Positions 1 through 62,952 of a stretch of 62,952 bases of DNA are shown here, one piece after another. Positions within the stretch are counted from its first letter, which is position 1; every line of letters starts with the position of its first letter. Position numbers and translations under genes: made by a program. The notes under the pieces are model-generated. The model saw only the letters and a list, made by a program, of their open reading frames with translations. It had not been told where the DNA came from and ran no database searches. The DNA is from a virus, in the IMG/VR virus record IMGVR_UViG_3300048586_000467, positions 1-62,952 of that record. The stretch is one strand, 5' to 3'.

Positions 1-109
1 GATACGTTCAGTGACATGGAGTTTCAGATTCCATCCTGGTCTGACCTGGACTACGCGATTGTCGTGCAGAACGAGGCGCTGGAGATCGTGGAGAAGGCGC
101 TCGCCGGCG
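1..109. repeat. Terminal direct repeat, left copy
   Basis: These 109 bases are identical to 62821-62929. An exact end-to-end repeat of this size is what an assembler leaves when it closes a circular or circularly permuted phage genome; a true short direct terminal repeat is the alternative. From position 110 the copies differ (a versus g at 110, t versus g at 116) and after 120 they stop aligning, so the right end probably carries sequence errors. The repeat lies inside a coding frame that runs over the junction. Confidence 0.95.
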
Positions 110-120
110 AGCGCCTTCTA
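1..120 (+). CDS. 3' part of the junction-spanning unknown gene
   Basis: Frame 1 here continues the gene that starts at 62161 on the other side of the contig junction. The frame stays open far downstream, but beyond position 176 it becomes arginine-rich and is clearly the shadow of the E2-like gene at 176. Stops lie in the other two frames at 119-121 (TAA) and 126-128 (TGA). A one-base error near 110-118, where the two repeat copies disagree, would end the gene at about 120 and leave a normal gap with a GAGGAG ribosome site before the next start. The exact end is uncertain. Confidence 0.55.
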
Positions 121-175
121 ATGACTGACGCTGAGCTACAGATGTGGTTTCGTTACAACCTGAGGAGAGTCTTCA

Positions 176-871
176 ATGGCGCTAGTGCAGACAAACTTTT
201 CTGGCCAGAACGCACTCAAGGCCGCCGAGCAGGTACAACCACTCGTCAGCCTGTTCGTGTACGAACACGCCGTCATTCTCCGCAAAGACGCCAGCAGCGG
301 CGGGTTCGAGGAATATCCGGTCGATCCCACACAGATCGCCAAGGCACTCGCCTCCAAGGCCGTATTCTCGACCGGCCTGCTGTCGCGCAACACTCTGTAT
401 GTCGGCGAGAGCGGCGTTCGGCGCAGGGTCATCGAGTATCGTCCCGCACAAATTACGGGAATATGGCTGGAAGGCGTCGACAATCCGTTGCGCGTCCCGC
501 TGCCGCCGCTCGTCATGGCGCGGTCGACCAACGGCACAAACATCGAGTATCAGATTTTTGCTGTACGCGGCAGGCCCGCATCTGGACGCGTGAAGCTGTA
601 TTACGCGCCGCTGCCGCACGTACGCGGTGGCGTGTGCTGGGGATCAGTGGCGAGGCCTGGCGACGAGAGTTTGAGTGGCGTCACTCTGAAAGAGGATTGG
701 CGTAATTTTCTCGGCTCCCGGTTCGGCAACCACAGTGTCGACGAAAAGAGCAAGTCGCGGCGTAAGGACATCCGGCAAAAGTATTACGACCTGATCGGGC
801 AGGCTATCTATCCGCTCGACGACCTGATCCCGGCGAAGTGGACGCTCAGCGATTTAATGAAGGTGGAGTGA
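176..871 (+). CDS. PRTRC system protein B / Prok-E2 family D, ubiquitin-conjugating-enzyme-like
   Basis: 231 residues. The pattern is that of the E2-like family D found with ThiF and ubiquitin-like genes (PRTRC cassette): an LPPLVM strip at about 109-114, a strand ending in YYAPLPHV (142-149), then GGVCWGS with Cys154, and a C-terminal FLGSRFGNH segment. Family proteins are similar in length. The inferred role is to accept or present the activated ubiquitin-like tail made by the ThiF protein at 1077. Cys154 is the visible candidate nucleophile, but catalysis has not been shown for this family to my knowledge. The ATG at 176 has GAGGAG about 7 bases upstream. The stop overlaps the next start (TGATG), indicating translational coupling. 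Confidence 0.8.
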   Translation: MALVQTNFSGQNALKAAEQVQPLVSLFVYEHAVILRKDASSGGFEEYPVDPTQIAKALASKAVFSTGLLSRNTLYVGESGVRRRVIEYRPAQITGIWLEGVDNPLRVPLPPLVMARSTNGTNIEYQIFAVRGRPASGRVKLYYAPLPHVRGGVCWGSVARPGDESLSGVTLKEDWRNFLGSRFGNHSVDEKSKSRRKDIRQKYYDLIGQAIYPLDDLIPAKWTLSDLMKVE

Positions 872-1080
872 TGGTCTACACACGCACCGCTGACTATGAG
901 TCCGGAACCGAAGAAGCGCGCGGTCAGTATTGGGCGTGGTGGATCCGGCGGTGGTCGACTGAATACGGTGACTGGGCGTGGGGTGTGACCAATCTGAACA
1001 CTGGCAAAGGGGTAGGCGACTGGACGTGGACGCGCCCCGAAGCGGAACGGGCCATAGCTGATTACGTGGAGCGATCATGA
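871..1080 (+). CDS. Small tryptophan-rich protein of the E1/E2 cassette
   Basis: 69 residues if translation starts at the ATG overlapping the stop of the E2-like gene. It holds an unusually high number of tryptophans (around WAWW, WAWG and WTW) and a C-terminal helix PEAERAIADYVERS. Its stop overlaps the start of the ThiF gene, so three genes are coupled head to tail. I do not recognise the family. Its position suggests an adaptor or regulator for the E1/E2 pair; this is inference from context only. Confidence 0.6.
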   Translation: MVYTRTADYESGTEEARGQYWAWWIRRWSTEYGDWAWGVTNLNTGKGVGDWTWTRPEAERAIADYVERS

Positions 1081-2006
1081 GTTATATCTTCAATCCCGAC
1101 ATGCACCCGCAGGAAATTGTGATCATCGGCCTGGGGGGAACGGGCAGCCAGCTTGCCCGGTCAGCCTGCCGCATTGTGTACGACATGCGAACCCGCAATC
1201 TTCAGACTCCGCGCCTGCGCTTTGTCGATCCCGATGTGGTCGAGATGAAGAATGTGGGCCGCCAGATGTTTGCTGCTGCCGACGTGGGTCGCTACAAGGC
1301 CGAAGTGCTGGCAAAGCGCTTCAGCGCCGCGCTGGGGCTTGAAATCGCCTGGTATAACGAGCCGTTTCATGGCATCCGGCATACGCACCAGGCCAGCTAT
1401 GGACGGTCAACCATTCTCATGGGGGCCGTCGATAACCATCTTGCCCGACGGGCGATTGCCGACGCCTCTGGCCTTTGGATTGACTGTGGCAATCACTATG
1501 CATCCGGCCAGGTGGTCATTGGCAACACGAAGCATGACAACGCCCTCAGAGATTCGTTTGGTCACGCGGATTCAACGGGGGAAGTCGCGCATCTTCCGAA
1601 CGCGAAGCTGGTCTTTCCGCAACTCCTGGAGCCGGACACCATACCGACGCCCGATCTATCGTGTGCTGACCTCGTGCAAATGGGGGAGCAACAACTGCTC
1701 ATCAACGACCTGGTCGCCGACGTCGCCGCGCAGTATCTGTTCAAAGTGCTGCATCGCCAGCCGATTCGCAGTTTCATCACCTACATCGATGCTGAAGTGT
1801 TGTCGATGCGTAGCATCCCGATCACTCGCGCTGACGTGGAGGCCTATGTCGGCCCCATTCCGGAGCCATATCGTTATCACACCAGCGACGGTCTTGTGAC
1901 CGGGCCAGACGATGACGAGGACTACCCGGAAGAGGATGACGATTACGAAGATTTCGACGACGAGCCAACCGGTTATGAGATCGTCGGAGATCTGCAATGG
2001 AACTGA
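1077..2006 (+). CDS. ThiF/E1-like adenylyltransferase (PRTRC system ThiF)
   Basis: 309 residues. The N-terminal Rossmann ATP site is clear: GLGGTGS at 18-24, the acidic strand VDPDVVEMKNVGRQ (50-63) and Lys74. The later segment CGNHYASGQ (137-145) and DLSCADLVQMGEQQ (about 193-206, Cys196) followed by a helix matches PRTRC-type ThiF proteins. Such enzymes adenylate the C-terminal glycine of a ubiquitin-like or sulphur-carrier protein; the likely partner is the protein at 61457. The last ~35 residues are strongly acidic (EEDDDYEDFDDE). The gene overlaps both neighbours. Cys196 may be the thioester cysteine, by position. Confidence 0.85.
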   Translation: MSYIFNPDMHPQEIVIIGLGGTGSQLARSACRIVYDMRTRNLQTPRLRFVDPDVVEMKNVGRQMFAAADVGRYKAEVLAKRFSAALGLEIAWYNEPFHGIRHTHQASYGRSTILMGAVDNHLARRAIADASGLWIDCGNHYASGQVVIGNTKHDNALRDSFGHADSTGEVAHLPNAKLVFPQLLEPDTIPTPDLSCADLVQMGEQQLLINDLVADVAAQYLFKVLHRQPIRSFITYIDAEVLSMRSIPITRADVEAYVGPIPEPYRYHTSDGLVTGPDDDEDYPEEDDDYEDFDDEPTGYEIVGDLQWN

Positions 2007-2617
2007 CCGTCATTCGCGCCACCACGCCCAGTCAGCTTCTGGCCGTCCGCGAACACTGCGAACAGCAGCATTACCTGCACCGGTATCCTGATCCACGCAG
2101 CCTGCCGTTCGGTTACATCCTTCAGGTCGCCGGTGAGCAGTATGCCGCTGATGGACGCCTACACGGGCTGGTCGTGATGAAAAAGCCCCAGCATCACCAG
2201 CAGCGCGGCCTCTTCGGGTATCCCGGTATGCCGACGAGCTGGCAGGTGCTTGACCTAGCCCGGGTCTGGATTCATCCAGCGCTGCAGCAGCACAGCGGCG
2301 GCCACGCGCTTTGCATTTTCAGCCAGTTTGTGAGTCGGGTCCTACGCCGGGTGCAATGGGACTGGCTTGACCACCATCCACCGCGCTACCCGGACCAGCC
2401 ATACCATATCGAGGTCGTCATTAGCTACTGCGATCTGGAGCACCATGACGGCACCGCCTACCGCGCGAGCGGCTTCCGCTGGAACGGCTTCAGCGAGGAT
2501 CGCACCAAAGAGGTGTATTACCGCCGCCTTCGAAAACCGTTGAAATCGTGGCTGCCGACTCGACCTGCGCAGCTCCCGCTTTTTGGCAACCTGGGCTTAC
2601 CCTTGAGGCATGACTGA
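1997..2617 (+). CDS. GNAT-fold protein, Mom-like DNA modification candidate
   Basis: 206 residues, overlapping the ThiF gene by 10 bases. It resembles the GNAT-like family that includes the Mu Mom protein, which carries out adenine hypermodification: an early HYLHRYP block, a central hydrophobic strand HGLVVMKKP, DLARVWIHP at about 90-98, and a late YRASGFRW block followed by KEVYYRRL. The match is to overall layout, not to a unique signature. An adenine methylase-like gene follows directly. It could equally be an unrelated acetyltransferase-fold protein. Confidence 0.5.
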   Translation: MELTVIRATTPSQLLAVREHCEQQHYLHRYPDPRSLPFGYILQVAGEQYAADGRLHGLVVMKKPQHHQQRGLFGYPGMPTSWQVLDLARVWIHPALQQHSGGHALCIFSQFVSRVLRRVQWDWLDHHPPRYPDQPYHIEVVISYCDLEHHDGTAYRASGFRWNGFSEDRTKEVYYRRLRKPLKSWLPTRPAQLPLFGNLGLPLRHD

Positions 2618-3468
2618 TGGCGAAGAAAACCCCTCCACCGGTGACTGACGAACAGCGTGTGAAGGCGTTTCTGAAGCACCTGAACGAGAATGCATTTTCG
2701 AAGTCGCCGGGTGAGAAATTCCGCGACTGGTGTGAACTGGCGTACTGCGCCTGGGCCAAGCCGACGGCGCCGACACAGGAACGCGCGGATGAGCTGGAAG
2801 CCCGCTATATGAGCATTGTCGAGCGCTACCGCCGCACTGACGAGGAACTGGAATTTATTCGGCACTCGTCGACGCATATGGCAGCTCTGGCACAACTGGC
2901 GGTGCAGGGTGGGGGAGTCGACTTCCTGGGCGACGTGGCAGGTCAACTGGAAATACTCAACCCCAATCAGGGGCAGTTCTTCACGCCTTATGAAGTGTCA
3001 AGGTTTATGGCAGAAATCAACCTGGACGGCCTGGAAGCGATTATTGAGCGCGATGGCTATGTCACCATCTGCGAACCGGCTGCCGGGGCAGGGAGCATGA
3101 TTCTGGCCTGCGCAGATGTGTTTGAGAAGAAGGGCTTGGGACCGGAAACGATGCTGGTCCAGGCGACCGACGTGAGCGCACTGGCCTTCTATATGTGCTT
3201 CCTGCAACTGAACTGGCGTGGCATTCCAGCAGCCGTCATTCGCGGTAATACGCTCAGCCTGGAGGTGTTTGAGAGCGCGTGGACGGTAGCAGCGCTGACC
3301 ACGTTTCTGCCGCATCACGGGCATCTGTCGTTCAGCAAGCCGAACCGCGAACCGCTCTTAGAGACCAACAGCGCGCCCGTTGAGGTGGAAACTGTGGTTG
3401 AGAGGGCAATCGGTTCCGAGCCTGTGGTCGAGCACGAGGCGAAGCTCGTGCAACTCTCGTTCTTCTAA
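2617..3468 (+). CDS. N6-adenine DNA methyltransferase-like protein
   Basis: 283 residues. QGQFFTPYEVSRFMA (118-132) and EPAAGAGSM (153-161) are the HsdM-like amino motif and SAM-binding motif I; ATDVSALA (183-190) gives the acidic residue for the SAM ribose. The stretch LQLNWRGIPAAVIRGNTLSLEVF matches plasmid and phage proteins of the N-6 DNA methylase family that lack an obvious NPPY motif IV, and none is visible here either. It may therefore be a methylase of altered chemistry or a SAM-binding relative. It overlaps the preceding gene by one base. Confidence 0.75.
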   Translation: MAKKTPPPVTDEQRVKAFLKHLNENAFSKSPGEKFRDWCELAYCAWAKPTAPTQERADELEARYMSIVERYRRTDEELEFIRHSSTHMAALAQLAVQGGGVDFLGDVAGQLEILNPNQGQFFTPYEVSRFMAEINLDGLEAIIERDGYVTICEPAAGAGSMILACADVFEKKGLGPETMLVQATDVSALAFYMCFLQLNWRGIPAAVIRGNTLSLEVFESAWTVAALTTFLPHHGHLSFSKPNREPLLETNSAPVEVETVVERAIGSEPVVEHEAKLVQLSFF

Positions 3469-3471
3469 TAT

Positions 3472-3506: not shown

Positions 3507-3518
3507 AAAGGAGCCGCC

Positions 3519-4364
3519 TTGGAGAAGTTATCAGTTTGGGAACGACTGGAAGCAGGAGCGCATCTGGTCGTGAACGTGAGTGGGGGAAAAGACAGCGACT
3601 GTATGGCGCTGATGCTGAGTCAACTGCGTCAACGTTGTGCGTGGCCCGGACGCTTTATTTTGCTGCATCAGGATGTCGGACGTATGGAGTGGCCTCAGTC
3701 TGAGCCGCACTGTCAAGCGCTCGCTGATCGCGTTAACGCGGAATACTTTGTTGTCCGGCGGGAGCAGGGGGACTTGCTTGAACGTATTTGGCAGCGGGCC
3801 TTGACGCTGCAAGGGACTGGCAAACCACCTTGGCCCTCAAGTGAGACACGTTACTGCACCTCGGAGCTCAAAACAGGTATCGCGAACCGATGGACACGTA
3901 ACGCCTTCCCTGATAACGCGATAGTCATTCATGCCTTGGGTATCCGTGCCGACGAGAGTGCCAGCCGTGCCAAAAAGGCGGAATGGAGTGATCGCCCCAC
4001 TGCCAGTGCTGCGACCAAGAGTCGACACGTCTACACCTGGTTACCGATTCATTCATATGGCCTTTCAGATGTTTGGGCGACGCTTAAGCGCCACCATTGG
4101 GAGCCTCACCCCGCCTATGCTCTAGGCAATGAACGTGTTTCCTGCGCTTTATGTGTCCTTGCCAGTCAAAATGATCTGGCAGTTGGGGCGGCTCAAAACC
4201 CGGAAATTTACAACGAACTGGTTGAGATTGAGATTTACTGTGGCTTTGCTTTCCAGCAGGGACGCTGGCTTGGGGATCTGCGTCCAGACCTACTGACTCC
4301 CGAACGCCTTGCGCGTTTTCGCGCTATGCGTCAGGCACAAACCAATCAGCCACCGTTGCTTTGA
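3519..4364 (+). CDS. PP-loop ATPase, PAPS reductase family
   Basis: 281 residues starting at TTG, with AAGGAG 6-7 bases upstream. SGGKDS (21-26) is the PP-loop that adenylates substrates; RYCTSELK (Cys113), GIRADES (141-147) and the CALC pair (Cys209, Cys212) complete the pattern of the PAPS-reductase/DndC-like superfamily. Phage members are usually annotated as phosphoadenosine phosphosulfate reductase, but the substrate is often unknown. Next to two putative DNA-modification genes, a role in sulphur or base modification is plausible. It is preceded by operator site A, so it is likely regulated separately from the upstream cassette. Confidence 0.75.
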   Translation: MEKLSVWERLEAGAHLVVNVSGGKDSDCMALMLSQLRQRCAWPGRFILLHQDVGRMEWPQSEPHCQALADRVNAEYFVVRREQGDLLERIWQRALTLQGTGKPPWPSSETRYCTSELKTGIANRWTRNAFPDNAIVIHALGIRADESASRAKKAEWSDRPTASAATKSRHVYTWLPIHSYGLSDVWATLKRHHWEPHPAYALGNERVSCALCVLASQNDLAVGAAQNPEIYNELVEIEIYCGFAFQQGRWLGDLRPDLLTPERLARFRAMRQAQTNQPPLL

Positions 4365-28801: not shown

Positions 28802-29320
28802 TTATCGAACGCCAGCGCGTGGATCGAGCACAGTGCGATGAATTTCGCGAATACGCTGGGTCGAAAGACGTCGATACTTCGTGAAGATCAGGGGTGCATA
28901 GGGCCACTTGCTGAGTTTATGGCTTGGGACCTGGCGGAGTCCGAACACGTAGACTGCGCCCGGCTCCTTGTTCTCGGCCAGCAGATAGCCAGAGCCATCA
29001 TCATTCGGCATGAAGCGAATCTTCCATCCTTCACTGCGTTTGCCTGACCGGGCATACCGCCCGTTCACTGTCCTGATGATGCCTTCACGGACGGCCCAGA
29101 AGTAATAGCGCTGCGCCCGCCGCTGCTTTTCCTGGTCGAGCGACCATTTGAAGGGATGCTGAGGCAGATTGCCCTTCACCTTCAGTTCCGCCTTCATGTC
29201 CCGGCTGATACGGCGTTCCTCCAGGCGGAACGCCGTATTCATCAGTCCGGGCGCCTTCTGCAGCGTCTGCGCCACGTCACGGAGCACATCGCGCCGTGCG
29301 GCGACCTCAGCCCGGATCAC
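28802..29320 (-). CDS. Minor head or head-assembly protein
   Basis: 172 residues. Basic, starting with a helix (MIRAEVAARRDVLRDVAQTL), with a beta C-terminal half (PGAVYVFGLRQVPSHKL). It overlaps the portal fusion gene and precedes the capsid promoter. Resembles small basic proteins encoded between portal and capsid in siphophages; no firm family. Confidence 0.5.
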   Translation of the reverse strand: MIRAEVAARRDVLRDVAQTLQKAPGLMNTAFRLEERRISRDMKAELKVKGNLPQHPFKWSLDQEKQRRAQRYYFWAVREGIIRTVNGRYARSGKRSEGWKIRFMPNDDGSGYLLAENKEPGAVYVFGLRQVPSHKLSKWPYAPLIFTKYRRLSTQRIREIHRTVLDPRAGVR

Positions 29321-32264
29321 CGCTCAGCTCCAGTTCCATCTCTTCGGCTTCCGCGTCGGCCTGCTCGCTGTCCACGATCTCTACATCCTCATCGTGGTCG
29401 TGATCGTGCTTACCAACGAACAGAGGAATGCGGTCGAGACGCCCCCGCGCTGGCTCGTCGGTCGGATCGAGCGAACAGTCACACCGCCAGCCACCGCAAT
29501 CAAGCGCGTCGGTCTTCGGCAGAACGCCACGTCGCTTCCAATCCTTGGCGCGATGCACCTGCCCGGCAGCAACGCCACAGGTCCGGCAATGTTCTTCCGT
29601 ACGCCCCAGGTGCCATTTCATCATCTGATTGGCCTTGGCGGACAGCTTGCCCTGCTCGTGGACGCGCGCCAGCCCCTTATTGACCCATAGATCAATCCGC
29701 TGGACGATGTCCTCTTTCTTCAGCAGGAACTCGCCGTACTTCGCCAGTGCCTCACGCTGCAACCGGTCTTTCGTCTCCGGGTCACGCGCCTGTTTGGCCT
29801 GGTTGCTCAGGTCGCGGGCCTGATCGCGCAGCTTCAGCACCTTGCGGTAGATCTCGTTCGCCAGCGATGTCCAGTGCCCACGCTCGGCCTTGATTTCGAG
29901 TTGTAGGTCGCGCTCCTCGTCCTCGTCCAGCCTGTCGGTATTCACCCCGCCCTCGACCAGCCCATCGCGGAAGCCAGCCCGAAACGCAGTCGTGATTTCG
30001 ACGCGGCCCAGGTCGCCAAACGCCTTGCGGTCGATCCGGCTTTCCATCGCCGAGTTGATGAGGTCGTACAGCACCGAGCGGTAGCGCGTCGCCGTATCGC
30101 CATAGGCGCGAATGCCTTTGCCGTGGTGCCGGATGTAGTGCTTGCGCGCCCGAATGAAGGCGTCTGCCAGGTGTTCATCCGTCGGCGCTTCCTGTAGGAT
30201 CAGGCGCAGGTAAGAGGCGGTGTCCGCCGGGATCGTCTCGGATTCAAAGGTGTAGTCGGCGCCTTTCCGGGCCGCTACGTCGCGCCAACGCTGGAAGTCT
30301 TTTACGACCGGATCGGGAATCCAGTTGTGCAGGGTCTTCGCGGTCACGCCGTCACTAGCGACCACGATGTGTTCAAACTCGTACCCCGTCCGACTAAAGA
30401 TCAGCCCGGTCAGCGGTAGTTCCACGGTTTCGTTGAAGGTTGGAACCGGCACGTCCTTGCCCAGATAGGCCAACGTGATATGGGGGTTCCAGTCGTCGGG
30501 CTGGGAGTAATCGGATAGTTTTACGCCCTGTGCTTCAAACGCTTCGACCACCTGGCGCTGGAACGCCTTCAATGCGTCTGTGGCCTGCACCTTCAGGATG
30601 AGGACATTCTGATCGTCCTGCTCGAAGACGTCGACCGGTCCCGCTTTGACCACCAATGCCGTCAGATCGTCCTTGACGAGATCATAAACCGCCCGGAATG
30701 GCGTCTCATCGACGAGCGACGCATAGGCAAGCGTCACATGGAACTGATGCGCGGGCGTCCACCGAACCGGTTCAGCCCCGCCGACTTTGATGCGCAGAAG
30801 ATCCTGTACAGCTTTCACAGAAGGCTGATCGGCAACGCTAAACAGCACGCAGCCGCTCGGCGTGCCATCTGATGCCCGGAAGGACGTAGCAGGCGCAGGC
30901 GGTTCCGGCAATGCAGCGGGCGCAGCGGCGGGTTGGGTCGCTGGCAACTGCTGACCACCCAAGCCGCCCGCGTCATTCATCCCCAGCGGCGGAACAGCAG
31001 TTCCACCCCCGGCGCCCTTCTCGCGCCAGTAGGTGGGAATATCGTTGATGTGAACCGGCACACCGCCAAGCATGTAGTAGCCCTTGAGGCGCTCGTCCGG
31101 CTGCTGGTCGAGTTCCTTCTGTGCGGTATATAGATCCATCACCCCCGCCGACACGCGACCGGTGATGTAAGTCGTCTTGACCTGCGAGTCTTCCTTCAGG
31201 AATTCGAGACGGCTGTAGTCCGGCTCCAGAACCACATCTACTTTGTATTCGTTGACGAGTTGCTCGGTGTAGATCTCGGCATACCATTCCGCCGTCGGCT
31301 TGATCCACAGTTCGAACCATGACTTCACCGCGACATAGGCCTGGGCGTAGTTGCTGGCCGACGGCGCGACGATCTCATAGGGAATGTCGGCAGCCGAAAA
31401 GACGTGCCGCTCGGCGCTTTCCGACGTGTCCTTCATGGCCACCTTATCGAGGTCCATCTGAAGTTGCACAAACTTCCAGCCGTGCGGCGCGACGATCACG
31501 CGCCCGACGTTACGAATACCCTGCACCGTGCGCCGGAAGAAGTCGGTGATCTTATTCACTTCATCAGGTGGTGCCGACGCTTTGACAATCCCTGCCTTCG
31601 CGGTCGCTTCCACATCCGGCACGACCATGCCAAGCGGCACGGCCATGTTTCGAAACAGGCTGACCCCCATTTCGGCGATGGCGCTGTCGAGCGTGGCGTG
31701 CATGAAGGCCACTTCCAGCGGTGACACGCCATCGAAGTCATCGCGGAAGTCGATGTAGTGCGAGTAAATCGCGTCCTGAAGTTCAATCGTGCGTGACGGT
31801 TCGCGATTGCGGCGGCTGGTCGTCGTGAACACATTGAAATGCTTTAGTCCGCCCCAGACAGACACTTCGGCGGCCCAGTCATGCGGATTCATCCAACGCA
31901 GGTTCATCACCGCGTCACTGATCGGACTGCGCTCTTTGTAGACGAGGTTGCGCCCCCAGCCAAAGTGCGTCAGTTCGGAGCGCTCCAGGCGATTTCGCTT
32001 GCCCTGGTGAATGATCTGCATCAGCGGGTGTGTGCGATCCAGATAGGTGCCATCGGCGGTCTTGGCTTTGAACTCCACGCGCGAAATGACCTTGGAGCGC
32101 AGGTTGCCGGCGCGATGCGCAGCGACCGATGTGCGCAGCAGCGTCGACAGATCGCTCGTCGAAATGTCCGGTCGAGCCTGTTCAAGCCAACTTTGAATCG
32201 AGGCCTTGATCGAAGCGGAAACACTTTTGTCTTCCCCCGCGAAGAGGATGGGATTGGTGCTCAT
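29307..32264 (-). CDS. Portal protein fused to a 2H phosphoesterase and a Mu gpF-like head morphogenesis domain
   Basis: 985 residues in three parts. Residues 1-415 are portal-like (NPHDWAAEVSVWGGLKHFNVF, DDFDGVSPLEVAFMHATLDSA, TAEWYAEIYTEQLVNEY). After a Pro/Ala linker, ~470-645 is a 2H (2'-5' RNA ligase/cyclic phosphodiesterase) domain with the two signature motifs FHVTLAY (His509, Thr511) and PHITLAY (His595, Thr597). Residues ~690-940 are MuF-like, ending in a cysteine cluster (HCRTC, CGGWRCDC). Portal-MuF fusions are known; the inserted 2H domain is unusual. 2H enzymes cut 2'-5' linkages or cyclic nucleotides, and the phage Acb1 anti-CBASS enzyme belongs to this superfamily. About 12 copies per virion would be expected. 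Confidence 0.85.
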   Translation of the reverse strand: MSTNPILFAGEDKSVSASIKASIQSWLEQARPDISTSDLSTLLRTSVAAHRAGNLRSKVISRVEFKAKTADGTYLDRTHPLMQIIHQGKRNRLERSELTHFGWGRNLVYKERSPISDAVMNLRWMNPHDWAAEVSVWGGLKHFNVFTTTSRRNREPSRTIELQDAIYSHYIDFRDDFDGVSPLEVAFMHATLDSAIAEMGVSLFRNMAVPLGMVVPDVEATAKAGIVKASAPPDEVNKITDFFRRTVQGIRNVGRVIVAPHGWKFVQLQMDLDKVAMKDTSESAERHVFSAADIPYEIVAPSASNYAQAYVAVKSWFELWIKPTAEWYAEIYTEQLVNEYKVDVVLEPDYSRLEFLKEDSQVKTTYITGRVSAGVMDLYTAQKELDQQPDERLKGYYMLGGVPVHINDIPTYWREKGAGGGTAVPPLGMNDAGGLGGQQLPATQPAAAPAALPEPPAPATSFRASDGTPSGCVLFSVADQPSVKAVQDLLRIKVGGAEPVRWTPAHQFHVTLAYASLVDETPFRAVYDLVKDDLTALVVKAGPVDVFEQDDQNVLILKVQATDALKAFQRQVVEAFEAQGVKLSDYSQPDDWNPHITLAYLGKDVPVPTFNETVELPLTGLIFSRTGYEFEHIVVASDGVTAKTLHNWIPDPVVKDFQRWRDVAARKGADYTFESETIPADTASYLRLILQEAPTDEHLADAFIRARKHYIRHHGKGIRAYGDTATRYRSVLYDLINSAMESRIDRKAFGDLGRVEITTAFRAGFRDGLVEGGVNTDRLDEDEERDLQLEIKAERGHWTSLANEIYRKVLKLRDQARDLSNQAKQARDPETKDRLQREALAKYGEFLLKKEDIVQRIDLWVNKGLARVHEQGKLSAKANQMMKWHLGRTEEHCRTCGVAAGQVHRAKDWKRRGVLPKTDALDCGGWRCDCSLDPTDEPARGRLDRIPLFVGKHDHDHDEDVEIVDSEQADAEAEEMELELSGDPG

Positions 32265-38332: not shown

Positions 38333-39097
38333 TTACGGCAGGATTGCCATCTCGACCACGGCGCTGAGGTCCCGATGTCGGATCACGTGATGCGTCTGGC
38401 GCTCCGGCATGAACACCAGATACATCCGCGACTGGGGGTGTTGCCCGACGAGCACACCAGGGCCGGAGATTGCTGGACCGGGCGTGATGAAGTGGTCGGG
38501 CTGCTCGACGACGCCAGTGGGCATCTGGTCAAAGACAATCGTCTCGCCATGCCGATGGAACGTGGTATGAAAGACCAAGTCCGGCAGCGGAACGCCAGTC
38601 GGAATATAGAACGTAGCGTCAAGCGATGGTGTCCGCTGCTCGCCGGTGTCGAACTCCGGCACCGGGTCGATGTCCCGTGACACGAGCGCACCGACGCCAC
38701 CCTGAAACGTGATGGTAGTCGACACAGCGACGAACTCGCTGTACATCTCCACAATAGCGGGCTGGCTCTCGCACAACCGGACCAGCTCACGCAGGTCGGG
38801 CGGATCCTGGTCCTGCATAAAGTCACCGCGCCAGGTGCGAACAACCTCACCGTTCTGGATCATGCGCATCAGCCAGCGCTGCTTATCCGTCCAGGGGCGG
38901 GACTCCCGCTGAATGCGTTCCGTCTTCAGCAGTGCCAAGCACTCGCGGCATGTCGGGGCAGCCTGTGTGATCGGTCCGACGTCACGGCTAAGTCGACGAC
39001 CGCAGGCCGTGTGATAGATTGAGCCGCGGGCTTCGACGCGCAGCACATGCCCATCGACGCAGCGGACAATCGGGAGCGTGGCTGTCTCAGTCGTCAT
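38333..39097 (-). CDS. Hypothetical zinc-binding protein
   Basis: 254 residues from the ATG that overlaps the ParB-like stop. Early cysteines (VRCVDGH, TACGRR, PTCREC) could hold zinc. The C-terminal half is beta-rich, with FDTGEQRTPSLDATFYIPTGVPLPDLVFH and PERQTHHVIRHRDLSAV. No family recognised. Confidence 0.55.
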   Translation of the reverse strand: MTTETATLPIVRCVDGHVLRVEARGSIYHTACGRRLSRDVGPITQAAPTCRECLALLKTERIQRESRPWTDKQRWLMRMIQNGEVVRTWRGDFMQDQDPPDLRELVRLCESQPAIVEMYSEFVAVSTTITFQGGVGALVSRDIDPVPEFDTGEQRTPSLDATFYIPTGVPLPDLVFHTTFHRHGETIVFDQMPTGVVEQPDHFITPGPAISGPGVLVGQHPQSRMYLVFMPERQTHHVIRHRDLSAVVEMAILP

Positions 39098-39740
39098 GAA
39101 GATGCTCCAGATAGAACCGGCAGACTTCAAGGACCGCCTGCCCGCGATTGTTGATACCGGTCGCCCGCAGCGCCTGCTCGAACAGCGCCACCTCATCGAC
39201 GTAGAGCACCGGCTTGATCTGCTTCTGCCGGTCGCCGGTCAGCCGCGCTGATGAGCCGCTGTCGCCGTCAACTTTATCGTTGACCAGCTGCGCGACTTCG
39301 AGATCGGCGAGCAGGTCGTCCAGCTCGTCGGCCCGGAACAGGTCGGACAGATCCACCCCGTTCTCGATATCCTGCGCCACCTGTTCGGCATTCCAGGTCA
39401 GCGACAGTTCACCCGCCCGATTGTCGGCATACGCCAGTTTGCGAGCGCGGTCGTCCGCCTCATCGTCGAGCCGCAGGTCTGTACGTTTTACGACCACCAC
39501 GGCGCGCCCGTCGGTCTCGACTTCGATTACCTCATCAATGCCGGCAGCCCGTGCGCCCTTCAGCGCCTGGTTGCCCGCGATCAGCGTGCCGTCGGCGTCC
39601 GCCAGCAGCGACCGCCCCGCCCCGTTCTGTGCGAAGCTCTGTTCAATCGCCTGCTGCCCGCGTGGGCTGCTCTGATTTGCGTTATGCGGGTCGGGTCGAT
39701 AGTCTTCGAGCTTCCGCCGCGTGACCTTCACTTGTCCCAT
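39087..39740 (-). CDS. ParB/Srx-fold nuclease-like protein
   Basis: 217 residues from MGQVKVTRRKLEDYRPDPHNAN. The core GQQAIEQSFAQNGAGRSLLADADGTLIAGNQALKGARAAG is the ParB N-terminal fold with the G-N-Q-ALKGA variant of the usual GEHR motif. Phage relatives sit next to methylases and terminases rather than in partition. It is first in the minus-strand accessory operon, behind a promoter with a LexA-type box. Confidence 0.75.
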   Translation of the reverse strand: MGQVKVTRRKLEDYRPDPHNANQSSPRGQQAIEQSFAQNGAGRSLLADADGTLIAGNQALKGARAAGIDEVIEVETDGRAVVVVKRTDLRLDDEADDRARKLAYADNRAGELSLTWNAEQVAQDIENGVDLSDLFRADELDDLLADLEVAQLVNDKVDGDSGSSARLTGDRQKQIKPVLYVDEVALFEQALRATGINNRGQAVLEVCRFYLEHLHDD

Positions 39741-39787
39741 AAGCGCCCCTTGTGCAATAAGAGCATTAAGACAGGATTGTTGGCGAC

Positions 39788-39816
39788 AGTATAGCACAAA
39801 GGTTCTATGCTTAGAA
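39788..39816 (-). promoter_or_regulatory. Minus-strand promoter of the ParB-like operon
   Basis: On the minus strand TTCTAA, 17 bases, TATACT. The -35 is weak but the -10 is good, preceded by TGC. A LexA-type box covers the spacer. Confidence 0.55.
39792..39807. promoter_or_regulatory. LexA-type box at the ParB-like operon promoter
   Basis: TAGCAC-AAAG-GTTCTA, one mismatch from the TAGYAC/TAGAAC form in the left half. It overlaps the promoter spacer and touches the -10 element. Confidence 0.6.
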
Positions 39817-46310: not shown

Positions 46311-47816
46311 TTATTTGAGGACGGACTGGAAGCGGTCGATGAGCGTCTCGGTGTCCAGGTCTGGATAGTCCCGTTCGAACAGGCTTCGGATGGCGACCTG
46401 GAACAGGGTAGCGCTGCCATTCTTCCGCCGGGTCACCATCTCCCGCCGGACCAGATCCGGCAGGAAACGGACAATCGTCGTTTCGCTATAGCCCGTGAAT
46501 CGGGCCAGCTCGCGTGGGCTGAAGCTCATGTTCTCGTGGTCGACCAGATACGCCAGCCACATCCGATACTGGCGCTGCAGGCTGCCCACGTACTCGAGTA
46601 ACCCGCTGAAGCCGCGCTCCTGCTTCCGGATCGCGCGGGCCGTGGCGGCGGGGCTGCGATACGGCGATTCGACCAGTTCAGGAATGGGGTCTGGCTGCTG
46701 CTCAAACAATGGGGCAGGGGATTGCCAGAGCGGGTTCTGATGAACACGCACATCCAGCGCGCCGTTGACCGCCAGCGGAATGCCCGCAACCTGCTGCTGA
46801 GTCAGCCGCTGCACTTCGTTACGCAGGTCATCCCGCTCGCCGTAGGCCTGCGCCAGCGCCGTTTCAAGTTCCTCGACCTTCGTTTCCAGCTGCGAGATCT
46901 GCTGATGCAACCCGTCGACGTCCGGCGAGGCTTCCTCATCGATGTCGGCTTTCGGCTTCATCGACGACAGCTTGTCCAGCGCTGCCAGAATGGCCTCGTC
47001 AATCGCGCGGATCGGCGCGCCGGTGACATCGGTCACGACTTCCGCGGGTACTGCCTCATGCCGCCGCACCTGCACCGTCCGGTAGTCATCGTCGCCGATG
47101 AACCGGTCTTCCGCCAGGATCAGCGCCTGCCCGGTCTTCAGCTTGCGCATCATGCCGTTCAGCTCCCGCTCGGCGATGGGGAGCTGCTCGCGCAGGATCT
47201 TCGTGTCCACGCCAAAGCTGAGCCGGTGGGCGATCAGAAGCGTGGCCTGAGTCAGGAAGTCCTTGACGATGCTGGCCGCGCGCTGGGTGGCCACCATCGT
47301 CGTCAGCGACTTGTGGCGACCACGCTTCGCCATGTCGATGATGAGCGGGCGCAGGCGGGTGGTGTCTGCCTGGGGCGCGTAGAGCTGCGCCTCGTCGATG
47401 ATCAGGGCGTACGGCGCCGGGGTTTCGATGTTGAACATGTCTCCCCACAGCGCCCGCAGATAGAGCGACAGAATGTCCTCGGCTTCATCGTCCTGGTAGA
47501 GACTCATGTCCAGAACGATGGAAATGCGTTCGTTCAGGCTGAGGCGTGCCAGCTCTGCCGCGTTCGCTTCGGACAGGACGACGTGGGCAGACTTGCGGCG
47601 GCCGGCCAGGATGACCGGCGCCGACTGGGGCAGAGTGATCGCGGCCGCCATCGGGTCGATGAATGTGAATGGCTGGCCCGCAGCGTTCCATTCGCTCGCC
47701 ATGACGAGCAGCGTATTGGTCTTCCCGCTGCCGGACTTTCCGATCAGGGCAATGCGTTGTCCGATGGCGTTTGCCAGATCGACCTTCAGCCCATCGGCGA
47801 TGTTGAGGACGTGCAT
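46311..47816 (-). CDS. HerA/VirB4-like ATPase with C-terminal winged helix
   Basis: 501 residues. GKSGSGKT (26-33) and LIIDEAQ (138-144) are Walker A and B; TTMVATQRA is the sensor-like strand. Then a coiled coil (~300-345) and a wHTH-like end (FSPRELARFTGYSETTIVRFLPDLVRR). HerA-FtsK-type ATPases move DNA. In an operon with ParA it may help plasmid-state maintenance, DNA translocation or mobilisation. Confidence 0.7.
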   Translation of the reverse strand: MHVLNIADGLKVDLANAIGQRIALIGKSGSGKTNTLLVMASEWNAAGQPFTFIDPMAAAITLPQSAPVILAGRRKSAHVVLSEANAAELARLSLNERISIVLDMSLYQDDEAEDILSLYLRALWGDMFNIETPAPYALIIDEAQLYAPQADTTRLRPLIIDMAKRGRHKSLTTMVATQRAASIVKDFLTQATLLIAHRLSFGVDTKILREQLPIAERELNGMMRKLKTGQALILAEDRFIGDDDYRTVQVRRHEAVPAEVVTDVTGAPIRAIDEAILAALDKLSSMKPKADIDEEASPDVDGLHQQISQLETKVEELETALAQAYGERDDLRNEVQRLTQQQVAGIPLAVNGALDVRVHQNPLWQSPAPLFEQQPDPIPELVESPYRSPAATARAIRKQERGFSGLLEYVGSLQRQYRMWLAYLVDHENMSFSPRELARFTGYSETTIVRFLPDLVRREMVTRRKNGSATLFQVAIRSLFERDYPDLDTETLIDRFQSVLK

Positions 47817-47824
47817 CGATCCCC

Positions 47825-48598
47825 CTACCCTCCTTTGACAGCGCGCTTGATTTCCGCAGCCAGGCGCTCAAACTGACGTGCAGCTTCAAGCATCTCCTGC
47901 TGTTGTTTCGAATCCATCTTTTTTAGATCGTTTTGTGACATTATACGTGCTAAACGCACGGCTTTATTAAAAACTCGCCGTTCCTTTTTGGATACCAGTG
48001 GCAGTTCGCCACCTGGCGTCAGATCAGGCACCGACGGGGCGGGGCCGGGCAGCACCCCGTTTGGAATACCATCAGGATATTCCTGGATCATGGCTTCGAG
48101 CCGACGTTTGGACCACTGCTGCCGCTCTGCCCAATCCAGCCAGTAGACCTGCCACTCTGGTTCCAGCGGCGCCACAGCGACGTGATGCGTGAAGTCCAGT
48201 TTTTCACGCCGGCGTGAAATTTCGACCCGCTTCGCCACCGACCCCCAGTTATACAGTGTGCCTATCGACTTGCGGATAATCTCGGCGGCCTCATCGTAAC
48301 TCTTGCCGTGAACCCGCTCGCCGCTGATGAGCCAGTCTGCGACCAGCCAGACCCACGCCTTATTGACGTTACTGAAGTAGATACCTAGATGCTCCCACTC
48401 ATCGGCTGTTGCGCCATTGTCGATCAGGCCAACGCTGGTAAGTTTGTAATTTCCGACGACGAGGGTCCCATCGGCCTCGACGACCGACTTGATACCCGCA
48501 TCCCCCAATTGTTTATTGATCAGCCCCAGGGTGCTCTGGGCCATCCGCTGCTGAGCGGACGCCAGAGGATTTATCGGCTCGCGCTTTGTTCCAGCCAT
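47825..48598 (-). CDS. LmbU-like DNA-binding regulator
   Basis: 257 residues. The central run WVWLVADWLISGERVHGKSY, SIGTLYNWGSVAKRVEISRRREKLDFTHHVAVAPL and WSKRRLEAMI matches LmbU-type transcription regulators of actinobacteria and plasmids. The ends are hydrophilic. It overlaps parA by 28 bases, indicating co-expression; it may act as a partition or operon regulator. Confidence 0.55.
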   Translation of the reverse strand: MAGTKREPINPLASAQQRMAQSTLGLINKQLGDAGIKSVVEADGTLVVGNYKLTSVGLIDNGATADEWEHLGIYFSNVNKAWVWLVADWLISGERVHGKSYDEAAEIIRKSIGTLYNWGSVAKRVEISRRREKLDFTHHVAVAPLEPEWQVYWLDWAERQQWSKRRLEAMIQEYPDGIPNGVLPGPAPSVPDLTPGGELPLVSKKERRVFNKAVRLARIMSQNDLKKMDSKQQQEMLEAARQFERLAAEIKRAVKGG

Positions 48599-49545
48599 GC
48601 CAGAACCTCTCTTTCAAATTGATGTGCCGTCATGACCACTTCACGAGCCTCGGGCGTGCGCGTCGACAGCGCCCTGATCGTCTGACCGTACTTTGCCATC
48701 TTGGGGTAGGTCTTCAGAAGCCGCACCGGTTCCCACACCATGGAGCCGAACGTCTTCCGTAGTTCGATCAGGTTTTCCGTATGTTCCTTGAGGCTGCGAA
48801 ACTTATTGGGGATGATTCCCAAGACGCGGTTTGGGGTGCGGCCACGCTGCTGGCGCCGGAGGCTGGCATTCTCGACCTGCTGGAACACATCGGACAGGGC
48901 AAACAAGCTGAGGGCTTCCAACTCAGTGACGTAGACGAATGCGTTCATCGCTTCGTAGATCACACCGTCGAACAAATTCATGCTGGGGCCAGTATCAATC
49001 AGGATGACGCTCAGGCGATATTTCTCTGTCATATCCTGGAGCAGGGCTTCGAACTTGGTCTCGTCGGCCAGCAGCCACGGAATTTGAAACGTGTTCGGCC
49101 CGGCCGGTAGGGCATAGATGTTTCCTGGCTGGATCGGAGGTGCATCATCCGGTGCCTGAACTACCTCGCCACTGTCATTGATCAAAGCGAGCGGAGCCAG
49201 ATAACTATCCAGTGGCACCTGGCGAACGTGCTCTTCCAGTGGGAGAAGAAGGAAGTGCGGGTCATCGGGCGTCCCGCCATCAGGAATACCGATCAGCGCG
49301 TGAAACAGGCCGTCCTCCTGTTCCAGCCCGAGCAAGCGCGCCGCATGGGAACCGCCCTGCGAGTCGGTGTCGACGATGCCAACGTTGTGGCCGCGCAGGG
49401 CCAGCTCGCCGGCCAGGTTGACGAGGTTCGACGATTTACCAGGCCCACCTTTACGATTGACGAACGCCACCCGAATGCAGATGTTGTGATCGATCATGTA
49501 AGGCGCGATCAACCCATCCGTCAGCCAAGTCCAATCAGTTTGCAT
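48571..49545 (-). CDS. parA: ParA-type partition ATPase
   Basis: 324 residues. The deviant Walker A NRKGGPGKSS (30-39), GIVDTDSQGGSHAARLLG, and VILIDTGPSMNLFDGVIYEAMNAF are standard ParA/MinD landmarks. It segregates DNA by binding nucleoid DNA with ATP. Overlaps both neighbours in an operon of four to five genes. Its presence without an integrase argues for plasmid-like maintenance. Confidence 0.85.
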   Translation of the reverse strand: MQTDWTWLTDGLIAPYMIDHNICIRVAFVNRKGGPGKSSNLVNLAGELALRGHNVGIVDTDSQGGSHAARLLGLEQEDGLFHALIGIPDGGTPDDPHFLLLPLEEHVRQVPLDSYLAPLALINDSGEVVQAPDDAPPIQPGNIYALPAGPNTFQIPWLLADETKFEALLQDMTEKYRLSVILIDTGPSMNLFDGVIYEAMNAFVYVTELEALSLFALSDVFQQVENASLRRQQRGRTPNRVLGIIPNKFRSLKEHTENLIELRKTFGSMVWEPVRLLKTYPKMAKYGQTIRALSTRTPEAREVVMTAHQFEREVLAWLEQSASR

Positions 49546-56842: not shown

Positions 56843-56916
56843 GGCGGTATAGCTCAGCGGTAGAGCGCTCTGCTCGAAAAGCAGAGAGGTCGATGGTTCG
56901 AATCCTTCAATCGCCA
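56843..56916 (+). tRNA. tRNA with expanded anticodon arm (anticodon CGA or GAA)
   Basis: 74 nt. Acceptor GGCGGTA with AATCGCC (one mismatch), D-arm GCTC-AGCGGTA-GAGC, variable loop AGGTC, T-arm GATGG-TTCGAAT-CCTTC (one mismatch). CCA is not fully encoded. The anticodon stem CTCTG/CAGAG leaves a 9-nt loop CTCGAAAAG. Counting from the 5' side gives C32-U33-CGA; pairing the extra C-G gives a 7-nt loop with GAA but C in place of the universal U33. The short variable loop argues against serine. Decoding is unclear. Confidence 0.75.
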
Positions 56917-57250
56917 CATGCTAACTTTATTGTCCGGTCGCCTTGAGTGAGCACCTGCGCTACTCGCATCCCAATCACAGGCGGTAGAGCGGCACCGGCA
57001 AAAGAAGCATTCAACGGAGAGGGGGGCAGGGTTCGTCCGGTGCACCGTCAAGCGCCGAGGTGCCTCTGGTGGTTATACCCGGTCTTAACTCAAGCCCCTC
57101 CGATCCCAAAACTATTTTTGATGCTAATTTTAAGGCGCTCGGCAGGTAGCACAAAAGCGCCACACAGACGAGAGAGGTTGTCGACCCGCAGCACGCGGTC
57201 ACCTGCTGGCCTAAGGGCCTGACCGGGCGGGGAGACACCTCAAACGCGGC
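56917..57250 (+). other. Intergenic region after the tRNA, possible untranslated RNA
   Basis: About 330 bases without a credible gene. It starts behind the tRNA and ends at a strong terminator (57251-57285), so it is probably transcribed. It contains several G/C-rich segments that can pair (for example GAGGGG near 57019 with CCCCTC near 57095). I see no second tRNA. It may be a small RNA or the remnant of a lost gene. Confidence 0.4.
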
Positions 57251-59805: not shown

Positions 59806-60284
59806 TGACCACCAGCGCCGAACGCCTTGCCCGCTCGCTCATTCGGACCAGCGAAAGCGCCCAGACTGTCAGGATGTGCCTGGCTGACTTTGACGACGCG
59901 CTGGCGCGCACAGACAGCCCGGAAGAGCGCGATGCCGTCTCGGTCGAGGTCATCCGCATGTATCAGAAAGAGAAAGCCTATGGCTACAGCGAAGAAGTCC
60001 ACCAAGGCGAAGACGCCATCGCCCAAGCAGATCGCCGCCGCGCAGCACAAGCCACTCGTGATTACGCTGACCATCGAGGATCCGGCGGCCATCGTCCAGC
60101 AGGGCATGATGGTGCTGAAACGCGGCGACAACGCCATGGTCTTCAGCCCACGTTGGAGCAACCCCACGCAGCTGGGGGACGCCATCCGGGAGGCAACGCA
60201 TCAGTTCCTGCAGGTCGAAGTCGACCCCGCCGCCGCAAAAAAGCAGGCCGCGCTCGTCAAGCCACCACCGCCGCCCGCTCCTGA
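59805..60284 (+). CDS. Hypothetical protein, probably frameshifted or overlapping
   Basis: Coupled to the previous stop (TGATG). The first ~58 residues (MTTSAERLARSLIRTSESAQ to YQKEKAYGY) look like a real helical protein. After ~59980 the frame turns arginine/histidine-rich, as expected for the shadow of the gene at 59980, and runs on to 60284. A +1 shift near 59975 would join it to that gene. Either a sequence error, recoding, or a lost stop. Confidence 0.4.
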   Translation: MTTSAERLARSLIRTSESAQTVRMCLADFDDALARTDSPEERDAVSVEVIRMYQKEKAYGYSEEVHQGEDAIAQADRRRAAQATRDYADHRGSGGHRPAGHDGAETRRQRHGLQPTLEQPHAAGGRHPGGNASVPAGRSRPRRRKKAGRARQATTAARS

Positions 60285-60363
60285 GTCGTCCACTGACAAC
60301 GACATTCCGCAACTGAAGATGTCTGTCGCGGCTCGGATCGCTGCCCGGGTCATAAACCGGTAG
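59980..60363 (+). CDS. Hypothetical protein
   Basis: 127 residues from the ATG at 59980. A basic N-terminus (MATAKKSTKAKTPSPKQ), a beta core (LVITLTIEDPAAIVQQGMMVLKRGDNAMVF) and a proline-rich tail. It overlaps the previous frame by over 300 bases; the two may form one protein by a frame shift. Confidence 0.55.
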   Translation: MATAKKSTKAKTPSPKQIAAAQHKPLVITLTIEDPAAIVQQGMMVLKRGDNAMVFSPRWSNPTQLGDAIREATHQFLQVEVDPAAAKKQAALVKPPPPPAPESSTDNDIPQLKMSVAARIAARVINR

Positions 60364-61456: not shown

Positions 61457-61891
61457 ATGGCCCCACGTAAGAACAAGACCGTTGAAGAAGAAATCACCGA
61501 CCTGCTCGACGAGAAAACCGACCAGGCCGAAGACAAGGGCCTGATACTCGATGACGAGGGCGGTGAACCCCTCAACGACGACATCCTCTCTGACGAGGAT
61601 GAACCGGCTGCTGAAGCCGATTCGGACGACGAGGAAGGCGCAGAGGAAGCGCCCGCCACCGACACGACCGCAGCCCAGGCAAAGCCTGAAGATGCCACCG
61701 CAGGCCGGGTCTTCAAAATCGGCTCGACCAGCATCCCGGAGAGCGAAGCCACCGTCGGGAAATCCAACGAACAGGTGCGCAGCATCCTGAAGACGTCCTT
61801 CCCGGAAGTCGCCAACGCCACGATTGGGGTCACGCGTGAGGGCGAGCAGACCATCGTCAGCTTCCTGCCGCAGCCCGGTCGCAAGGGCTAG
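61457..61891 (+). CDS. PRTRC system protein C-like, prokaryotic ubiquitin-like protein with acidic N-terminal extension
   Basis: 144 residues from the ATG after AAGGAG. Residues 84-144 (VFKIGSTSIPES, VGKSNEQVRSILKTSFPEVANA, TIVSFLPQPGRKG) match the PRTRC-C/Prok_Ub family, about 60-70 residues long and ending in glycine. The first ~80 residues are acidic and low complexity, not usual for the family. The C-terminal Gly-Arg-Lys-Gly is the expected site of adenylation by the ThiF protein at 1077. It precedes the junction gene and the E2-like gene. Confidence 0.75.
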   Translation: MAPRKNKTVEEEITDLLDEKTDQAEDKGLILDDEGGEPLNDDILSDEDEPAAEADSDDEEGAEEAPATDTTAAQAKPEDATAGRVFKIGSTSIPESEATVGKSNEQVRSILKTSFPEVANATIGVTREGEQTIVSFLPQPGRKG

Positions 61892-61900
61892 GGAATAGGC

Positions 61901-62164
61901 ATGGCTATTGATGCGCATCTGACCATCAGCCACGCCGACCTACTGGATGCACTGCAATCGGTCCCGGCGCTGGAACTTCAGAGCGTGATACTCCTGCGGG
62001 AGTATCACGCCACCGGTGTCTTCCCCAGCCGCGAGCAGGTGATCGGCGCGACGGAGGAACTGGTCGCATACACCAGACAGGCGTCCGGCGCTGCGGCTGA
62101 ACTACGTAAGCTGACCGCCATACCTGCTGGGGAAGCTGCATTGGTGGAGACCTATTCACTATGA
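61901..62164 (+). CDS. Small helical protein of the cassette
   Basis: 87 residues, nearly all helical (HADLLDALQSVPALELQSVILLREY, ATEELVAYTRQASGAAAELRKL). Nine bases after the ubiquitin-like gene; its stop overlaps the next start. Family unknown. Confidence 0.55.
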   Translation: MAIDAHLTISHADLLDALQSVPALELQSVILLREYHATGVFPSREQVIGATEELVAYTRQASGAAAELRKLTAIPAGEAALVETYSL

Positions 62165-62952
62165 CTCTGATGCTGCCAGAACGGGCGACAGCCGCCAGCG
62201 GTGGGATTGCCGAAATTTACCGGGCCATCGGTTTCGTTTGCGATGCGTCGTTTGGAGTCGGGCCAGCCCGGGAAATCCTTGAAGCCATTCGACTGTTCGA
62301 TCCGTTCTGGTTTGACACCACAACCGACCAACTACGTTATCACGGCTCTGACAATGTCTTTCTGACCTGTCGTCAGCAGTTTCCAGGTGTTTATGCTGAC
62401 CTGCTGTGGGAATGCCAGACCTTCGACCCCAACGATGACGACTTCTACATGCATATTCGCGATGTTGTCGAGGAGGGGGTAGGTGCCGTCATTGCCGACC
62501 GCACACAGGCGGACTGCTTCTCATGGATCGAAATGGTTGAGGCCATTGAGGCCGATTGGGTTCCCTACGAGTGCGTTGGCTTCCGCGACTTTCCCGAGGA
62601 TGACGAAGAGTGGGAAGAGCTTCAGATCGACGACGATGACCGTCGGCAGATCGTCGACTGGTTGCGACCGCAACGTGCATATCGGAAAAACTATTATCAC
62701 TGCATTGACGAATTGGGTTGGAGCCTGTCCTGGCAGCCGGGGCGTACTTACGACCAGCTCTGGGCGATGACGGCCTGGCTGGTGGGTCGCACCGGGAACA
62801 CGCTGGCGGACTTCACCGACGATACGTTCAGTGACATGGAGTTTCAGATTCCATCCTGGTCTGACCTGGACTACGCGATTGTCGTGCAGAACGAGGCGCT
62901 GGAGATCGTGGAGAAGGCGCTCGCCGGCGCGCGCCGTCTAAGTAATGAAGCG
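62161..62952 (+). CDS. Junction-spanning cassette protein (PRTRC protein F-like position)
   Basis: 264 codons to the contig end, continuing at base 1. Start overlaps the preceding stop (TATGA). Tryptophan- and acid-rich, with FYMHIRDVVEEGVGAVIAD, FRDFPEDDEEWEEL and a late YDQLWAMTAWLVGRTGNTL. It lies where PRTRC-F occurs in PRTRC cassettes, and the C-terminal layout is compatible, but I cannot confirm the family. Bases 62930-62952 disagree with the left repeat and should not be trusted. Confidence 0.6.
   Translation, partial: MTLMLPERATAASGGIAEIYRAIGFVCDASFGVGPAREILEAIRLFDPFWFDTTTDQLRYHGSDNVFLTCRQQFPGVYADLLWECQTFDPNDDDFYMHIRDVVEEGVGAVIADRTQADCFSWIEMVEAIEADWVPYECVGFRDFPEDDEEWEELQIDDDDRRQIVDWLRPQRAYRKNYYHCIDELGWSLSWQPGRTYDQLWAMTAWLVGRTGNTLADFTDDTFSDMEFQIPSWSDLDYAIVVQNEALEIVEKALAGARRLSNEA
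62821..62929. repeat. Terminal direct repeat, right copy
   Basis: Exact copy of bases 1-109. The final bases, 62930-62952, diverge from the left copy and are best treated as low-quality contig end. Removing one copy gives a unit genome of about 62,820 bp. Confidence 0.95.

Follow-up and report, generated by a model that had tools for sequence, protein, structure and literature searches.

Operons of the PRTRC kind were described as operon type 6d, for which conjugation of a ubiquitin-like protein (UBL) was predicted, with a JAB peptidase serving in both its processing and its removal (Iyer et al. 2006, PMC1779556). According to the same study, an E1-like enzyme lacking a fused JAB domain invariably had a JAB gene next to it. 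On cyanobacterial plasmids the genes follow the order E, UBL (often fused to X), F, E2, JAB and E1. The Bil/Bub and CBASS Cap2-Cap3 systems are alike in their E1-E2 chemistry, and known examples act in phage conflict, but they employ other E1 and E2 families and architectures and contain a JAB (Cap3, BilC). Here we analysed a window of 62,952 bp, which is the whole of a single virus record (IMGVR_UViG_3300048586_000467). In our preferred reading, to which we give a probability of about 0.62, a tailed phage bears a PRTRC-type UBL conjugation cassette that lacks the JAB, and in which the UBL would pass from E1 to E2 and on to a target. The cassette resembles plasmid PRTRC (type 6d, PMC1779556; NCBIfam PRTRC models) in its UBL, helical F protein, family D E2, ThiF-type E1 and PRTRC_E-like protein and in their order. 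It differs in having no JAB (PRTRC_A), a tail-free UBL, a ParB-like gene that lies outside and a histidine in place of asparagine in the E2, and in being carried by a phage. Because the JAB is absent, it is best classed by these comparisons as a variant rather than a standard member of PRTRC.

The 63-kb record is a genuine phage, since a profile search found a capsid protein (PF05065, 9e-33), a portal (PF04860, 2e-22) and a large terminase (phrog_2, 4e-33). It also encodes an M23 peptidase, DnaB, ParA and a ParB-like protein. The last of these (39087-39797, minus strand; phrog_620, 1e-15) lies outside the cassette, 23 kb off, and 9 kb from the ParA-like gene (48571-49545, minus strand); the pair suggests a possible plasmid-like prophage state, and the genome may be that of a phage-plasmid. 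The portal (29307-32264, minus strand) is fused to a 2'-5' RNA ligase-like domain (residues 503-614; PF13563, 8e-12), which has a weak match, just under the cut-off, to the anti-CBASS protein Acb1 (PF23474, 7e-6). In addition to the main terminase at 32261, an ORF at 46311-47816 (minus strand) encodes a second terminase-like or HerA-like ATPase (phrog_2666, 4e-14; DUF87, 2e-4), and there is one tRNA-Phe gene (56843-56917, plus strand).

The ends of the contig overlap exactly over 109 bp (Table 1). An assembly artefact, in which phage and cassette were wrongly joined at the contig ends, might be suspected from the 7 mismatches to the contig start among the final 23 bases, and from the position of both ends within the cassette. 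We consider this extremely unlikely: aside from the exact overlap, the join preserves the reading frame of the F-like ORF 62161, the homology of F runs across it (E 1.6e-11) and the gene order of relatives is reproduced across it, while E2 and E1 share a contig with the phage genes irrespective of the join.

Table 1. Features of the phage cassette, its neighbours and the contig ends, in the order in which they follow once the ends are joined.
Feature	Position	Strand	Evidence and remarks
PRTRC_E-like protein	59980..60363	+	ATG 59980, open frame from 59809; phmmer E 9.4e-8
UBL, PRTRC_C-like, 144 aa	61457..61891	+	custom UBL profile E 2.5e-11
Small helical protein X, 87 aa	61901..62164	+	phmmer 2.8e-8 to L198 X
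F-like, N-terminal part	62161..62952	+	residues 1-220 in 62161-62820
End overlap	62821..62952	+	62821-62929 matches 1-109 exactly; genome circular or with terminal redundancy
F-like, C-terminal part after join	1..174	+	frame open to 705, coding signal fades after about 174
E2-like, Prok-E2_D / PRTRC_B-like	176..871	+	PF14460 1.6e-13, above Pfam cut-off
ORF, 80 aa (69 aa from ATG 871)	838..1080	+	slot normally of JAB; doubtful
E1-like adenylating enzyme, PRTRC ThiF-like	1077..2006	+	TIGR03736 7.6e-38; PF00899 7e-16
Mom-family DNA-modification protein	1997..2617	+	PF25680 4e-8; overlaps E1 stop; neighbour, not core
N6-adenine methylase-like	2617..3468	+	PF02384 5e-8; neighbour, not core
PAPS-reductase family, BrxP/DndC/SspD-like	3519..4364	+	PF01507 1.9e-9; neighbour

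After joining the ends, the genes for the PRTRC_E-like protein, UBL, X, F-like protein, E2 and E1 follow one another on one strand, in an order shared with cyanobacterial plasmids, viral loci and metagenome-assembled genomes (MAGs), and all core ORFs are open with a normal coding GC pattern. The cassette is a real PRTRC-type UBL/E2/E1 set. A sequence-only reading of the same DNA had proposed just such a set on one strand of a phage, crossing the contig join, and had advised joining the ends and running HMM searches. Profiles and F homology bear out the proposal, with E2 and E1 matching the expected families (Table 1). The UBL gave no match in Pfam or NCBIfam and was recognised with a custom profile, built from 42 PRTRC UBLs with the window excluded, which ranked it first among the 921 window ORFs. 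The match covers the last 60 residues up to the terminal GRKG, in agreement with the glycine ending that had been noted. An hhalign comparison gave a probability of 96.5% (shuffles, at most 0.8%), and phmmer an E-value of 1e-14 to the UBL of locus L163; identity to the UBLs of L163, L114 and L112 was 44-52%. The protein consists of an acidic N-terminus of about 80 residues, predicted to be disordered, followed by the UBL domain (84-144), and terminates in ...LPQPGRKG, with Gly144 as its last residue; G141, K143 and G144 are invariant. AlphaFold 2 (AF2) predicted a beta-beta-alpha-beta-beta domain (pLDDT 79-87); the 50 best Foldseek matches to it included several ubiquitins (E 0.5-1.4), but no match was significant. 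It follows from the same tail that the GRKG remnant on lysines, suggested as a mass-spectrometric signature, would not be seen after digestion with trypsin: with cleavage behind both R142 and K143, a single glycine would stay on the target.

The two genes between UBL and E2, which had been described as an unknown pair, are indeed a pair but can be named, since they correspond to X (61901) and F (62161). Beyond its best match (Table 1), X matched the X proteins found at the same cassette position in L196 and L199 (phmmer 5e-4 to 9e-4); an X profile placed ORF 61901 at the top of the 921 window ORFs, yet with an E-value of only 0.23. X is a separate gene here, whereas most JAB-containing cassettes encode it as a fusion C-terminal to the UBL. 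The joined F protein matched seven MAG F proteins (E 1.6e-11 to 5.5e-4) in alignments that cross the join, the best of which covers query residues 184-282 and spans joined residue 220, where the join lies. An extension of F to position 705 was ruled out by the coding signal: the position-specific GC content of the frame is 0.59/0.31/0.74 over 1-174 versus 0.71/0.64/0.47 over 175-705. The PRTRC_E-like gene, omitted from the sequence-only reading, is also a member of the cassette; by phmmer and by alignment it matches the gene that immediately precedes the UBL gene in the cassette of Anaerolineaceae NAT117. General profiles for X, F and E gave no significant hit on window ORFs, and these three proteins were identified only through close MAG relatives.

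Both enzymes are divergent members of their families, since both score under the NCBIfam equivalog cut-offs: the E1 reaches 130 bits against the PRTRC_ThiF model (TIGR03736; cut-off 145), and the E2 an E-value of 3e-12 against PRTRC_B (TIGR03737). Against a custom plasmid E1 profile the E1 scores 205 bits. It conserves G-x-GGTG, D51, D53, N59, R62, Q63, K74, D119 and Cys196, with all nucleotide-site residues matching the family, and has an additional acidic C-terminal tail. Searched against PDB structures, the E1 profile found Cap2 (7e-7) and BubCD (9e-5), while a PDB sequence-profile search detected no relative of the PRTRC E2 or UBL. With PADLOC, similarity was partial and confined to the E1 (BilD, 1e-4; E1-E2, 5e-8), the E2 and UBL having no match; on these profiles the cassette would not be classed as Bil or CBASS type II. 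The E2 is 43-45% identical to four MAG E2s. When its AF2 model (pLDDT 84.6) was compared with the PDB by Foldseek, no match reached significance and the 50 best included no E2; the assignment of an E2 fold therefore rests on the family profiles.

No JAB was found anywhere in the phage record using a custom profile, Pfam Prok-JAB and the JAMM motif, which extends to the entire record the earlier remark that no JAB was visible. The same JAB profile was positive in 35 viral records and in 10 of 11 plasmid or phage records. A JAMM-like motif match at 24049 (minus strand) sits in a 60-residue frame and was judged to have arisen by chance. The slot normally held by the JAB contains a doubtful ORF (838-1080) with a weak coding signal, which overlaps the stop of E2 (TGATG) and the start of E1 (ATGA); it was rejected as a JAB remnant, as neither the JAB nor the X profile gave a signal, no homologue turned up and the JAMM motif is absent. 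Elsewhere in the JAB-less clade, E2 and E1 mostly overlap directly. No PRTRC-type JAB was detected in four MAG genomes with a JAB-less cassette, although these genomes may be incomplete. The phage cassette and its MAG relatives are an exception to the rule of an adjacent JAB (PMC1779556).

Scanning viral contigs with the window's E1 and E2 as single proteins returned no relatives, and broad alignments held no stretch conserved enough for scanning; what did find relatives was the E1 motif W-x-DCGN-x4-GQ, written as a degenerate DNA pattern. The pattern picked out 39 other IMG/VR records, with an E2 in 37 and, between E2 and E1, a JAB in 35; a terminase (phrog_2) is present as well in at least 14 of these 39 records, and some IMG/VR records may be plasmids. 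In genome contigs the same pattern identified 104 stretches, 80 of which were taken as loci. Phage carriage in itself is not unusual, as 35 of the 39 other viral records have the cassette with a JAB, as do Burkholderia phage BgVeeders33 and Bacillus phage KLEB27-3. These phage cassettes, together with that of the fecal phage MT835919, share E2, E1 and, in most, the UBL, but their JAB adjoins the E1 and most of their UBLs have a C-terminal tail. The unusual feature is the absent JAB, not carriage by a phage. In KLEB27-3 (L008, 709-1416), whose cassette includes a JAB and an E1, four tandem near-identical UBLs form a polyubiquitin-like gene.

Nor is the JAB-less form a peculiarity of the phage: it is an existing subtype in Chloroflexota and Zixibacteria MAGs and occurs independently in Bacteroidota. 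The nearest relatives are cassettes of Chloroflexota MAGs (L163, L114, L169, L196, L198, L200) and of a Zixibacteria MAG (L112), with E-values of 1e-55 to 1e-87 for E1 and 1e-49 to 1e-59 for E2, and none has a JAB. Like the phage, this set (L163/L199, L114, L169/L195, L196, L198, L200, L112) has a UBL that ends in GRKG or GKKG, F, E2, E1 and no JAB, with X separate in most. They differ in lying on bacterial MAG contigs, in retaining the HPN-like Asn of the E2 and, for most UBLs, in lacking the acidic N-terminal extension. Group II intron-type reverse transcriptase ORFs were observed near or inside JAB-less Chloroflexota cassettes (L199, 4788-6617; L200, 1699-3390). In the E1 tree, the phage falls inside a clade of 8 JAB-less rows (SH-aLRT 99) to which these MAG cassettes belong. 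The Bacteroidota cassettes (L103, L106/L055, L116, L123, L143) likewise lack a JAB and have a UBL of about 72 residues ending in G-x-K-G, but their E1 sits on a distant branch. A single clade of all 23 JAB-less rows, and with it a single origin, was rejected (AU p 0.00015); therefore the JAB-less state arose more than once. A tail-free UBL was also observed in the PRTRC cassette of the Planktothrix plasmid NZ_LR882935.1 (L014, 5799-5931), which has no JAB on the plasmid and is possibly a recent independent loss. A literature search, with subscription journals mostly out of reach, returned no paper on JAB-less PRTRC and no biochemistry for the subtype.

The catalytic Cys154 of the E2 is invariant in the alignment. 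The position of the HPN-like Asn is occupied by His148 in the phage, versus Asn in all 38 other aligned rows. Relatives have the active-site motif P-N-[VI]-x-x-x-G-x-[IV]-C, the P-N...C spacing of which equals that of the eukaryotic HPN...C motif. In the phage E2 this stretch is P-H-V-R-G-G-V-C, with the active-site loop shortened by two residues; none of the other parsed E2s shows this pattern. Having lost an otherwise invariant Asn, the phage E2 may be altered or impaired. This raises the possibility that the cassette is decaying or repurposed, drifting towards loss or retaining only non-covalent functions; the change of Asn148 to His with the two-residue deletion, confined to the phage copy, and the doubtful ORF in the JAB slot are both in keeping with it. 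We think it quite unlikely, given open core ORFs with a normal coding GC pattern, the full set of E1 invariant residues and the retained E2 cysteine, while the absence of a JAB is common to the whole clade and so does not reflect fresh decay in the phage. Among human E2s, UBE2W alone has His at the HPN Asn position, and it modifies N-termini (PMC9527308, PMC4630614). By analogy, one might picture the phage cassette as a system that conjugates by itself, has no deconjugase and, through a UBE2W-like E2, may tag non-lysine sites such as N-termini, but we regard this as very doubtful.

Across all loci with a readable UBL, E2 and E1, the presence of a JAB went with the form of the UBL. In JAB-less cassettes every UBL (18 of 18 rows) stops exactly at G-x-K-G; the rows stand for 16 distinct loci, since two loci occur in duplicate (L163 is the same place as L199, and L055 is apparently on the same contig as L106). 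In JAB-containing cassettes, 58 of 65 UBLs are followed by extra residues, mostly 60-120, often matching X. The Fisher p of 6e-13 on the uncorrected table ignores ancestry and overstates the association because independent origins are few: only 3 supported independent pairs are available (sign test p 0.25). The simplest reading is that the JAB releases the UBL from the partner to which it is fused and is no longer needed when each of them has its own gene, so that gene splitting may have replaced processing by the JAB. Since seven JAB-containing cassettes have tail-free UBLs, the JAB would have another role too, which is probably deconjugation.

It had also been argued that a missing JAB implies irreversible tagging. 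This does not follow, as JAB-less UBLs are encoded in mature form and the host may supply a peptidase; the loss of the JAB may simply reflect a lost need for processing. A special case of our preferred reading, in which tagging is a one-way weapon that marks a host or defence protein with a UBL that nothing in the cell takes off again, would accord with the missing JAB and with the part that other bacterial E1-E2 systems play in phage conflict, e.g. CBASS Cap2/Cap3 (PMC10097602). We judge it unlikely: the same JAB-less set occurs on bacterial MAG contigs, one of them near a conjugative coupling protein, and so is not specific to phages, JAB absence accompanies mature UBLs, and other JAMM peptidases may exist in the host.

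Gene order, active-site residues, a mature UBL ending at Gly144 and the lack of a PRTRC-type JAB can all be read from the sequence, and suggest how conjugation by the phage cassette might proceed. The E1 would adenylate Gly144 of the UBL and take it up as a thioester, probably on Cys196, before handing it to Cys154 of the E2; the E2, perhaps helped by F and X, would then join the UBL to an amine on a target protein. Where a cassette has a JAB, this enzyme probably cleaves between the UBL and the C-terminal tail fused to it, usually an X domain, and may also remove the tag. In the phage no such cut would be needed because UBL and X are separate genes, and the cassette would be without a tag remover of its own.

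Directly downstream of E1 lie a Mom-like, an N6-methylase-like and a DndC/SspD-like gene (Table 1), in line with the association with DNA-modification genes that had been claimed, and the row (1997-4364) is a possible DNA-modification cluster. Mom homologues are also found about 2 kb from E1 in the viral cassettes L071 and L085, and the neighbours in relatives include methyltransferase-helicases with DUF6094 and a conjugative coupling protein. As such cassettes adjoin replication and DNA-modification genes on plasmids, conjugative elements and phages, our guess for the likeliest target is a protein that serves DNA maintenance or DNA modification, encoded by the element or by its host. The PAPS-reductase-family gene at 3519 (BrxP, 3e-14; DndC, 3e-12; SspD, 2e-10) makes a sulfur-carrier role the most serious mechanistic alternative: the E1 would convert the UBL tail into a thiocarboxylate in the manner of ThiS/MoaD, feeding the PAPS-reductase/DndC/SspD-like neighbour for thio-modification of DNA or tRNA. 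The gene lies 1.5 kb downstream, a homologue directly adjoins E1 in the JAB-less cassette L196 (E 8e-73), and the other neighbours resemble DNA-modification genes; moreover, ThiS/MoaD sulfur operons never contain a JAB (PMC1779556), which fits its loss. Yet all JAB-less relatives keep an E2 with a conserved catalytic cysteine, which sulfur transfer does not need, and the PAPS-reductase homologue is found in just 1 of the 7 other cassettes of the clade. The conserved E2 argues against a sulfur carrier, which we hold to be improbable.

PRTRC systems have been known by sequence since 2006 and are found on many plasmids, and our literature search found no experimental function for them. Rare and hardly studied, the JAB-less form belongs to a system that is known chiefly from plasmids of bacteria. 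The phage cassette described here is a minimal example, a small UBL-E2-E1 set open to testing, and it ties the presence of the JAB to the UBL being made as a fusion. It thereby makes two questions testable: to what the tag is attached, and whether the JAB of the parent system serves to process the UBL, to remove the tag or to do both.
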